Program-made: the position numbers and the translations under genes
Notes under the pieces: generated by a model
Databases searched by the model: none
The model's input: the letters and a program-made list of their open reading frames with translations, nothing else
What the model was told of the DNA's origin: nothing
Source: Pseudomonadota bacterium
GTDB lineage: Bacteria; Pseudomonadota; Alphaproteobacteria; SHVP01
Direction of reading: 5' to 3'
Assembly: GCA_027622715.1 (NCBI GenBank)
Contig: JAQBYN010000003.1
Span: forward strand, 62,001-126,000
Length of the DNA stretch: 64,000 nt
In this document: piece by piece, positions 32,291-35,317 of the stretch
Numbering within the stretch: position 1 is the first letter of the stretch
Layout: each line of letters begins with the position of its first letter

Positions 32291-33478
32291 ATGTCCGAAC
32301 GTGTCACAGATGCCGTGCTTGCCGCGCCATCAACGCGCCCGGGCCGCTATTGGCACCGTCTCGACGATGGCCGCGTCCAGTGCGACCTGTGCCCTCGGTT
32401 CTGCCGTCTTCACGACGGCCAACGCGGCCTATGTTTTGTCCGCGCCGCCGGTCCCGAAGGGATGGTGCTGACGAGCTACGGTCGCTCCAGCGGCTTTTGT
32501 GTCGACCCCATCGAAAAGAAGCCGCTGAACCACTTTCTTCCCGGCACCCCGGTGCTCTCGTTCGGCACCGCCGGGTGCAACCTCACCTGCAAGTTCTGTC
32601 AGAACTGGGACATGAGCAAATCGCGCGAGATGGATACCTTGGCCGACGCGGCCTCGCCCGAAACATTGGCACGCGCGGCCGCCGAACTAGGCTGTCGCTC
32701 CGTTGCCTTCACCTATAACGATCCCGTCATATTCCTTGAGTATGCGGTTGATGTCGCCGCCGCCTGTCGCGAAACTGGCATCAAGCGCGTTGCCGTTTCC
32801 GCCGGCTACGTCACGCCGCCGGCGCGCGCGGAATTCTTTTCGGAAATAGACGCCGTGAATATTGATCTGAAGGCATTCACCGAGGACTTCTATCGCAAGA
32901 TATGTGGCGGCCACCTCCAGCCCGTTCTTGATACGTTGAAATATCTCGTTAACGAGACCACGGTATGGACCGAAATAACGACGCTTCTCATTCCCGATGA
33001 GAACGACTCTGACGGTGAACTGAGCGCGATGTGTGCCTGGATCGCGGAGAACCTGGGCGCCGATGTGCCGCTGCATTTCTCGGCGTTCCATCCGGACTGG
33101 AAAATGCAAAATCATGGACGCACGCCGCATGCAACGCTGTCTCGTGCGAGACAGATCGCGATGCAACATGGGCTGCGCTACGTCTATGTCGGTAACGTGC
33201 ATGACCCAGAAGGGTCGAGCACGTATTGCCACGGCTGCGGCACGCGCCTGATCGAGCGAGACTGGTATCAACTGGGCGGATGGGCGCTCGATGATCGCGG
33301 GCATTGCCTGGCGTGCGGTGAACTCATGGCTGGCGTGATCGATGGACCGCCGGGCGACTGGGGGCGGCAGCGCTTACCGGTTCGGCTCCATGACTTCGAG
33401 CCCGGCGGGCGCAAACACAATCAGCCGGTTGGTCTTGCTACCAACATTCGGCGTCGTCCGACACGGGGTGCGCCCTAA
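32291..33478 (+). CDS. AmmeMemoRadiSam system radical SAM enzyme
   Basis: A 395 aa radical SAM protein of the AmrS family. The 4Fe-4S cluster motif C-x3-C-x2-C is at C96, C100 and C103 (GCNLTCKFCQNWD). Upstream is a Cys motif CDLCPRFC-x8-GLC typical of this family and of pyruvate-formate-lyase activase-like enzymes. The C-terminal part has a second Cys set (YCHGCGTRLI and CLACGEL) that may bind zinc or a further cluster. Divergent from the fused Memo-AMMECR1 gene. The substrate is unknown. The stop shares CTAA with the convergent transglycosylase-like gene. Confidence 0.93.
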   Translation: MSERVTDAVLAAPSTRPGRYWHRLDDGRVQCDLCPRFCRLHDGQRGLCFVRAAGPEGMVLTSYGRSSGFCVDPIEKKPLNHFLPGTPVLSFGTAGCNLTCKFCQNWDMSKSREMDTLADAASPETLARAAAELGCRSVAFTYNDPVIFLEYAVDVAAACRETGIKRVAVSAGYVTPPARAEFFSEIDAVNIDLKAFTEDFYRKICGGHLQPVLDTLKYLVNETTVWTEITTLLIPDENDSDGELSAMCAWIAENLGADVPLHFSAFHPDWKMQNHGRTPHATLSRARQIAMQHGLRYVYVGNVHDPEGSSTYCHGCGTRLIERDWYQLGGWALDDRGHCLACGELMAGVIDGPPGDWGRQRLPVRLHDFEPGGRKHNQPVGLATNIRRRPTRGAP

Positions 33479-34149
33479 CTGTCGGTCGGTGCGGCAGTTT
33501 CAGCTCGTGCGGCGCGGAGCGCCTGCTGGCGCTGCCGATAGGCGGCTTTCACGGCTTCGCGGCGAAGCTGGGCGTTACGGACCCGCTCGTCGCGCCATAG
33601 TGTTTTGACCTTCAACAGGTAGCCTTGCGCGCGCACCGGTGTGGCAGAGTGATAGCGCCCGATTGCCCGGTCCCAGGACCGTGTTTCTTGAAAGAGGTCT
33701 CGCAGGAATCCGGCGGAGTAGTCCGCGTTCGCTGCTGGTTCGAAGGCTTCGGATAGATCGTCGAAGGCGTCGGGGTGGTACCGCAGGTTGACCTGCATGC
33801 AGCCGACGTCGATGTTGCGAACGCCTTGCGCTTGGAGCCGCCGAACGGCGGCGATCGCCGAGTCCTTGTCATCGAAATACATCGATTTTGACCCCGACGT
33901 GACTGTCCAAGGCCAGGGGTAGCTGGCGCGCTGACCGGGATGCCAACGTCCGCTCTCCGCCAGGGAAATAGCCGAGAGCACTAATTTTGGTAGTTGATGC
34001 CGCTGTTCGGCGGCGAGCGTATGCGCTCGGCAAATCTGTCCTACCGCCGGCGAGAAAGGGGTTCCCCCGGCGAAGGCGACCGTGCTCGTTGAGAACAGCA
34101 GGAATGCGCCTATAGCGAGCAATAGCGGGAAACGGTGTGTGGGCGTCAT
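33475..34149 (-). CDS. Lytic transglycosylase-like (SLT domain) exported protein
   Basis: A 224 aa protein with a Sec signal peptide (1-29, FPLLLAIGAFLLFSTSTVAFA) and a Slt-type lysozyme-fold domain. The probable catalytic Glu is in SAISLAESGRW (about residue 64); MQVNLRYHPDAF and the DYSAGFLRDLF segment are typical of transglycosylases that cleave the glycan strand of peptidoglycan. The C-terminal 40 residues are basic and helical. ATG 34149 has GGAGAA upstream at good spacing. The frame extends further upstream but without a signal. Related proteins are often found with flagellar or secretion systems; none is near here. Confidence 0.88.
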   Translation of the reverse strand: MTPTHRFPLLLAIGAFLLFSTSTVAFAGGTPFSPAVGQICRAHTLAAEQRHQLPKLVLSAISLAESGRWHPGQRASYPWPWTVTSGSKSMYFDDKDSAIAAVRRLQAQGVRNIDVGCMQVNLRYHPDAFDDLSEAFEPAANADYSAGFLRDLFQETRSWDRAIGRYHSATPVRAQGYLLKVKTLWRDERVRNAQLRREAVKAAYRQRQQALRAARAETAAPTDS

Positions 34150-34261
34150 CGGGTTCTCCGTGAGCGGCGTTACCGCACAGATGCGAACGCCATGCCAAAC
34201 ACGACCATGTTGCAAAAACGCAACTAGTGTCACAATTCTGCGCCAGTCTGGGATTATTCGT

Positions 34262-34291
34262 TTGGTCGATTTTAGCGAGACCCACTATATC
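34262..34291 (+). promoter_or_regulatory. Putative promoter of the small RNA at 34297
   Basis: TTGGTC (34262-34267) and TATATC (34286-34291) with an 18-base spacer resemble -35 and -10 boxes. The predicted start falls at or just before the first hairpin of the RNA. Match to consensus is partial. Confidence 0.4.
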
Positions 34292-34296
34292 TAGTG

Positions 34297-34396
34297 TTCG
34301 GTATCGTTAGTCTCATGCCAACGATACCGAATACCCTTTCTGGGTATTTCCTCCCTAAACTCGGGCCCTCCTGCATCGTAGGTGGGCCCCTTTTTC
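34297..34396 (+). ncRNA. Small regulatory RNA of the mmgR / alpha-r8 (suhB-like) type
   Basis: About 100 nt with three successive hairpins and no reading frame. Hairpin 1 is a perfect 12 bp stem, TTCGGTATCGTT (34297-34308) with AACGATACCGAA (34320-34331). Hairpin 2 pairs ATACCC (34331-34336) with GGGTAT (34342-34347). A single-stranded stretch follows with the ten bases TTTCCTCCCT at 34347-34356. This is the invariant core I recall for the alphaproteobacterial mmgR/alpha-r8 RNAs, and it is complementary to Shine-Dalgarno sequences. Hairpin 3 is an intrinsic terminator. In Sinorhizobium, MmgR limits polyhydroxybutyrate accumulation through phasin mRNAs. Family naming is from memory; the RNA structure is directly visible. 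Confidence 0.78.
34363..34395 (+). terminator. Intrinsic terminator of the small RNA
   Basis: GGGCCC-T-CCT, loop GCATCGT, AGG-T-GGGCCC, then C and five T. A strong stem with one T-T mismatch and a U-tract on the plus strand. It ends the RNA before the tail of the convergent amidohydrolase gene at 34406. Confidence 0.85.
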
Positions 34397-34405
34397 GTCG
34401 CGACG

Positions 34406-35317
34406 CTACTGTGCCGCGTCGGCAAAAACTTGCGGCGGTGCACGCAAAGCGCGCGGGTCAACGGTAGCCAGACTCGCGATCAATTTTCCCAGATCCTCGA
34501 CAAGCTTGGCCATCCCCGAGGCCCGCGTGATTGTGCTTTCGTCCATATAAAGAGCGCGATTGACCTCGACCTGAAGGGCATGAATCCCACTGTTGGGTCG
34601 GCCGTAGTTTTGGGTCACGAAACCGCCCGCATAAGGGTCGTTGCGCGCGACGGAGTAGCCCATCGCGGTGAGACAATTTTCGAACAAATCGACAATCGCC
34701 GGATCGCAGCTCGTTCCAAAGCGATCCCCCAGGACGAAGTCGCTACGCCGCCGGCCGGAGTCGCCCTCAATCGCCGTGCCGGTAGACGGCATCGAATGAC
34801 AGTCGACCAAAACAGCGGCGCCGAATTTCGCGCGCGTCGCAACAAGCAGTTGCTTGATCATCGCGTGATACGGAAAGTAGAGCCGGTCAATTCGGCGTTC
34901 GACCTCGGCAAAACTGAGTTTCTTTCGATATATCTCCGCCCCGTTGCTGACCACGCGCGCGATAGTGCCCAAGCCAACCGACACCCGCGCCGAGCGCGAA
35001 TTGACGAAGCTGGGCAGTGGGTCGGCGAACATTTTCGGGTCCAGCTCGTAAGGTTCGCGGTTGGGGTCGAGATAGGCACGAGGAAAGAGCGCGCAGATGA
35101 GCGGTCCGCCCAGCGCTGGGGCCCGGCCAAAGAGTTCGTGGACGAAACAGTCTTCTGATCGGCGAATGGCGATCGCATCCAGGCGGGATTGGGCGAGAAA
35201 TTCCTTCGAGTAATTGTCACCGGAATGCGGCGACGCGAACACAAATGGCAACATTTGTTCATGCGGCCGGATGAGCTCGTATGCCTCGTTTTGAAGGACG
35301 TCAAAGGGGCGATCCAT
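34406..35317 (-). CDS. N-formylglutamate amidohydrolase family protein (copy 1)
   Basis: A 303 aa member of the FGase (HutG-like) family of zinc amidohydrolases, which release formate from N-formylglutamate in one route of histidine breakdown. Marks are FVFASPHSGDNYSKEFL near the N-terminus (metal His), GTIARVVSNGAEIY, the central VDCHSMPS, and NDPYAGGFVTQNYG. No hut genes for histidine use lie nearby, so the true substrate may be a different formyl- or carboxy-amide. A second, more divergent copy is at 49233. ATG 35317 starts the protein (MDRPFDVLQ). Confidence 0.87.
   Translation of the reverse strand: MDRPFDVLQNEAYELIRPHEQMLPFVFASPHSGDNYSKEFLAQSRLDAIAIRRSEDCFVHELFGRAPALGGPLICALFPRAYLDPNREPYELDPKMFADPLPSFVNSRSARVSVGLGTIARVVSNGAEIYRKKLSFAEVERRIDRLYFPYHAMIKQLLVATRAKFGAAVLVDCHSMPSTGTAIEGDSGRRRSDFVLGDRFGTSCDPAIVDLFENCLTAMGYSVARNDPYAGGFVTQNYGRPNSGIHALQVEVNRALYMDESTITRASGMAKLVEDLGKLIASLATVDPRALRAPPQVFADAAQ

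Follow-up and report, generated by a model that had tools for sequence, protein, structure and literature searches.

The αr8 (αR8) RNAs have been reported in all alphaproteobacterial orders except the Rickettsiales and are typically linked to a gene for N-formylglutamate amidohydrolase (FGase) (PMC12559287). MmgR from Sinorhizobium meliloti (αr8, SmelC689) is a 77-nt RNA with three stem-loops and an anti-Shine-Dalgarno core (PMC7143759). In Caulobacter, SisA pairs with a TonB-receptor mRNA 5' of its start codon and represses it directly; compensatory mutations of the seed and the leader were tested in cells producing Caulobacter Hfq, and the SisA target set is rich in transporters (PMC12559287). 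At high growth rate, SuhB of Sphingopyxis granuli TFA acts with Hfq to repress a catabolic regulator (PMC6563040). The known roles of αr8 depend on the host and relate to polyhydroxybutyrate (PHB) in rhizobia, TonB receptors in Caulobacter, and catabolite repression in Sphingopyxis.

The element described here is a genuine αr8 copy in an uncultured alphaproteobacterium. RF00519 (suhB = MmgR = αr8) matched positions 34326–34404 on the plus strand of the window, i.e., the whole 64-kb stretch of DNA that was analyzed, with 53.5 bits at an Rfam gathering cut-off of 41 (E = 3.4e-08 in the window search, 4e-10 genome-wide), and was the sole Rfam small-RNA family found there by cmscan. The genome comprises 3.15 Mb on 86 contigs; in all of it, one RF00519 copy lies above the cut-off and two weaker ones reach 34 bits. 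Features characteristic of αr8 are present, including the unpaired 10-mer UUUCCUCCCU 3' of a hairpin, a Rho-independent terminator, and an additional 5' stem-loop. The mmgR/alpha-r8 (suhB-like) identity proposed by a previous sequence-only reading has therefore passed the covariance-model check. Its remark that such RNAs are known mainly from Rhizobiales is out of date, as αr8 has been reported across the Alphaproteobacteria except Rickettsiales (PMC12559287). Finding such an RNA in this clade is no surprise, and the new part is the predicted target set only. The locus comprises the following features:

33475–34233, minus strand: divergently oriented transglycosylase-like gene flanking the promoter, with an uncertain start codon (homologues at αr8 loci).
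34262–34290, plus strand: promoter-like boxes TTGGTC and CTATAT, 17 nt apart (sequence; CTATAT conserved in the order).
34297–34331, plus strand: hairpin 1 (SL1), 12 perfect base pairs and an 11-nt loop (sequence, fold, relatives).
34331–34347, plus strand: hairpin 2 (SL2), UACCC-UUUCU-GGGUA (fold; first hairpin of the Rfam model).
34347–34356, plus strand: predicted single-stranded seed UUUCCUCCCU, a complement of ribosome binding sites (sequence, fold, conservation).
34363–34395, plus strand: Rho-independent terminator stem and T5 tract (fold, terminator evidence).
34326–34404, plus strand: Rfam RF00519 (suhB/MmgR/αr8) match (53.5 bits, cut-off 41).
34406–35317, minus strand: FGase gene, tail-to-tail with the sRNA (Pfam PF05013, 2.1e-75).

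Hairpin 1, with 12 perfect pairs between 34297–34308 and 34320–34331, and the core TTTCCTCCCT at 34347–34356 were read directly from the sequence. In hairpin 2, positions 34331/34332–34336 pair with 34342–34346/34347 (six pairs in the RNAfold model), and the terminator stem (34363–34389) is followed by a C and the T5 tract (34391–34395), which is short for Hfq binding. Folding of 34297–34396 with RNAfold yielded three consecutive stem-loops at −45.8 kcal/mol, with a z-score of −8.1 against 200 dinucleotide shuffles, none of which folded equally well. For an RNA starting at 34297, core bases 2–10 had probabilities of 0.76–1.00 of being unpaired in the predicted fold; the first core U, which has the option of pairing with hairpin 2, reached 0.26. 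If the start were moved to 34290, the CCC of the core would be paired. The three hairpins, the open core, the terminator, and the promoter boxes were all found where the sequence-only reading had placed them, and the amidohydrolase gene that it had named as one neighbor, opposite a transglycosylase-like gene, turned out to encode FGase. Its view that the boxes end flush at hairpin 1 did not hold, since TTGGTC (34262–34267) and CTATAT (34285–34290) are followed by a gap of 6 nt, where the start site would fall. A transcription start near 34296–34297 would put hairpin 1 at the extreme 5' end of the RNA. The boxes were not listed by a generic sigma-70 scan.

A strong αr8 copy with conserved core was identified in nine of the ten genomes of the host's order, and a wider search with strict filters revealed a match in 34 of 60 genomes. 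Within the order, the core is invariant apart from its first U, and UUCCUCCCUAAACU is invariant as well; the exact string of hairpin 2 and core also occurs in MAGs labelled Rhodospirillaceae, Alphaproteobacteria, or Proteobacteria bacterium. The CTATAT box is located 59–65 nt upstream of the core in 9/9 order members, and hairpin 1 lies directly behind it, with a stem of 7–12 bp, in 9/9 distinct order members. Ten pair positions of hairpin 1 are variable, each with two or three standard pair types (CG/TA/TG, GC/AT). For this comparison, the arms were aligned by script and by eye, outside the MAFFT alignment A1, which puts the 5' arm of AT-rich members wrongly. As the arms change in pairs, they point to a structure formed by the RNA and not to a palindrome bound by a protein. 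Hairpin 1 had seemed to be an addition because the Rfam model begins inside its 3' arm, at 34326, leaving most of the hairpin outside the model. However, of 20 αr8 loci in other families, 12 have an upstream region that folds at z < −1.5, often ending at hairpin 2, and MmgR has three stem-loops; hairpin 1 is therefore ordinary for αr8 and just long in this host. With covarying arms and similar hairpins in front of many αr8 RNAs, its interpretation as a new element or a DNA operator was rejected. The same applies to a conserved small ORF in its loop (ATGCC...), as the frame is broken in relatives.

The surroundings of the RNA are equally typical. The FGase gene and a homologue of the transglycosylase-like gene adjoin αr8 in all nine order members. 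Outside the order, FGase is a neighbor of the RNA at 12 of 20 loci in other families, and the transglycosylase-like homologue is beside it in several other orders, which makes this setting the standard αr8 locus. At the thresholds applied, the transglycosylase-like gene itself had no Pfam or NCBIfam match.

Regarding further copies, the two weaker αr8-like siblings in the host genome (34 bits; L002 1501–1577 and L003 1501–1581) have the cores GCCUCCCU and GCCUCCCA. L002 and its orthologue L052 are both located behind the same LysR-type gene, and L003 and L050 resemble each other in core and terminator. Unannotated αr8 RNAs above the Rfam cut-off were detected in three phages, i.e., Bradyrhizobium phage ppBeUSDA76-1 (OP596613.1, L316 2997–3077, 62.8 bits), Microcystis phage Mwe-JY08 (PP395640.1, L317 2994–3077, 62.8 bits), and Microcystis phage vB_MweS-yong2 (OM681334.1, L315 3016–3096, 47 bits). 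In the two Microcystis phages, the RNA follows genes for lysis (lysozyme; L-alanyl-D-glutamate peptidase) at a distance of about 2 kb or less. A copy of a host regulator may be carried by phages, and Microcystis as the stated host of αr8-bearing phages may deserve a check. Five IMG/VR contigs also matched RF00519 with 45–62 bits (L039 7675–7756, L041 12511–12588, L044 1–51, L047 5570–5651, and L048 295–368); an FGase gene was not detected in their examined stretches, and L039 and L044 have endolysin-like genes about 3 kb or less from the match. Furthermore, αr8-like core stretches are present on 31 plasmid records, mostly from Methylobacterium, Bradyrhizobium, and Sinorhizobium (e.g., NZ_CP066357.1, NZ_CP088278.1, and NZ_AP014812.1). 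Searches with the window's own sequence gave no match among plasmids and chance-level matches only among phages.

Targets were sought genome-wide by sequence-pattern and family searches, with start codons picked by script. The leaders of SBP_bac_5 and other substrate-binding protein (SBP) genes bear (A)GGGAGGA(A), to which the core is exactly complementary. The nine-base pattern AGGGAGGAA, followed by 2–11 nt and ATG, occurs at four sites in the genome, three of which precede SBP_bac_5 genes, an oligopeptide-type family with 22 genes above the cut-off in the host (hypergeometric p ~1.5e-6, assuming a gene number of ~2900). For the eight-base pattern GGGAGGAA (23 sites in the genome), 9 of the 21 genes scanned encode substrate-binding proteins, comprising five SBP_bac_5 and one each of DctP, NMT1, NMT1_3, and Peripla_BP_6. 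Across the order, nine-base sites were again found at SBP_bac_5, DctP, and other SBP families, and the site is kept in orthologous leaders (e.g., L078/L121, L091/L128, and L070/L125). The mean duplex energy with the core was −14.9 kcal/mol for the 22 SBP_bac_5 leaders compared to −8.6 kcal/mol for window genes (p 2e-8). GGAGG is present in 15 of the 22 SBP_bac_5 leaders, in 0 of 50 window genes, and in 9 of 87 neighbor genes. The base in front of GGAGG in the host SBP_bac_5 leaders is G in 13 cases and A in none; a G fits the CCC of the RNA, whereas an A is preferred by the ribosome. In sister genomes, the corresponding numbers were 18 G and 0 A (G001) and 20 G and 4 A (G006). The small AT-rich genome G005 keeps the RNA and has a weak SBP leader pattern. 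Three genomes lacking an αr8 match in the strictly filtered search have GGAGG in 0 of 16 SBP_bac_5 leaders, and GGGAG-type sites are present in one genome that was αr8-negative by the filtered search. The SBP_bac_5 and other SBP leaders represent the best-supported, and new, predicted target set, although these targets could be shared with the siblings L002 and L003 or belong to the siblings instead. As a separate observation, G006 (sister genus, 4 Mb) has 89 SBP_bac_5 matches compared to 34 in G001 and 22 above the cut-off in the host (G000), reflecting a large expansion of peptide-type uptake systems.

With moderate confidence, we interpret the element as a trans-acting αr8 sRNA whose seed blocks ribosome binding sites, mainly of SBP importer mRNAs. 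A ~100-nt member of the αr8 family (MmgR/SuhB/SisA) would be transcribed from its own promoter, starting just 5' of hairpin 1 and ending at the terminator at ~34395, and the two 5' hairpins would keep the 10-nt CU-rich seed single-stranded. Together with Hfq, for which the host genome contains a gene, the seed would stop translation by pairing with ribosome binding sites of the form (A)GGGAGGA(A), by analogy to the Caulobacter work on the same seed (PMC12559287). The main predicted targets are the SBP mRNAs of ABC (SBP_bac_5) and TRAP-type importers, along with some catabolic enzymes, and the RNA would curb the scavenging of peptides and organic acids while better food is available. We infer this role as an uptake brake in line with the transporter-rich targets of SisA and the catabolite repression by SuhB (PMC12559287, PMC6563040). 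A bolder and more tentative possibility is that αr8 and its siblings act as one post-transcriptional brake on many paralogous SBP_bac_5/TRAP genes, whose ribosome binding sites might have been drawn to the seed (GGGAGGA, not AGGAGG). If true, this would be the periplasmic counterpart of the Caulobacter TonB-receptor regulon, and uptake control, not PHB control, would be the ancestral αr8 role. In any case, a testable nutrient-import target set is added to the family.

The SBP signal could also arise if the RNA bound many strong ribosome binding sites in a diffuse regulon with no focus on uptake. As the seed is an anti-Shine-Dalgarno motif, the enrichment may in part stem from highly expressed SBP genes having strong ribosome binding sites, and the controls account for such Shine-Dalgarno usage only in part. 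Isochorismatase, MmgE/PrpD, TauD, amidohydrolase, and other enzymes are also among the predicted targets, and the preference for G over A before GGAGG extends beyond SBP genes (GGGAGGAA 23 sites, AGGAGGAA 8). Nevertheless, we consider this explanation rather unlikely: the advantage of the SBP_bac_5 leaders over window genes survives subtraction of the anti-Shine-Dalgarno energy (p 4e-5), and the ribosome-favored variants AGGAGGAA and AAGGAGGA are rarer and yielded zero SBP genes, a comparison of little power, since these control patterns gave few real genes. Even less can be said for a purely cis-acting structure, i.e., a structured terminator between FGase and its neighbor with no regulatory RNA. 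Its tail-to-tail position with the FGase gene would suit such a function; however, a terminator needs neither a core that is invariant while the stems vary, nor a conserved promoter box, nor siblings at unrelated loci, and we regard this reading as highly improbable.

An MmgR-like function as in Sinorhizobium, i.e., an RNA controlled by N and C that limits PHB granules via phasin levels, would be suggested by the shared family, and MmgR affects PhaP1/PhaP2 and is repressed by AniA/PhaR (PMC7143759). The sequence-only reading was correct in that the window holds no phasin gene; elsewhere in the genome, our search revealed one phasin and one PhaR homologue. The phasin leader is taagaggactgcaATG, with a similar leader in two sister species, and the phasin leaders of G000, G001, and G002 (aagaggac, aagagggc) share about 5 nt with the complement of the seed. 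With −9.7 kcal/mol, the duplex between the host's own phasin leader and the core is near background, and phasin is not supported as a target, its leader showing no special complementarity; the convincing predicted targets are the SBP leaders. In addition, G003, G005, and G009 (the latter only 64% complete) keep the RNA, and neither phasin nor PhaR was detected in them. Given both observations, PHB control is unlikely to be the core job, or the main role, of αr8 in this host, and relatives with the RNA but without detectable phasin or PhaR argue that it is a side role. Moreover, the PhaR-like TGC motif of αr8 promoters in other orders is absent in the host's order. Altogether, an MmgR-like function appears improbable here. 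TGCA/GCrGCA-like motifs occur around the start site of αr8 at seven loci in other orders (L004, L005, L006, L008, L011, L012, and L019), which we take to resemble PhaR/AniA sites. Similar TGC motifs are found upstream of the host's own phasin gene.

Compared to the described systems, the host RNA resembles MmgR in its RF00519 match, three stem-loops, and anti-Shine-Dalgarno core, but differs in its predicted length of ~100 nt (77 nt for MmgR) with a long hairpin 1, a promoter without PhaR-like motif, and phasin not being a likely target. With SuhB of S. granuli TFA it shares the Rfam family name; SuhB has 61 nt, and its known target thnR belongs to the tetralin pathway of TFA (PMC6563040). With SisA-D (αR8) of Caulobacter crescentus, the host has in common the UUUCCUCCCU seed, the FGase linkage, sibling copies, and hfq in the genome. 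The targets of SisA include TonB-dependent receptors, among other transporters, whereas periplasmic SBP genes are predicted for the host RNA. Unlike in Caulobacter, no CrfA-like sponge was identified in the host among the AGGGAGGAA hits; those without a long gene lie mostly inside coding sequence, and none is sponge-like. AbcR1 and AbcR2 (αr15) of rhizobia belong to a different RNA family, RF00519 being the only Rfam sRNA family in the host window. They rewire metabolism and target ABC-transporter mRNAs, similar to the role predicted for the host RNA (PMC8844928).
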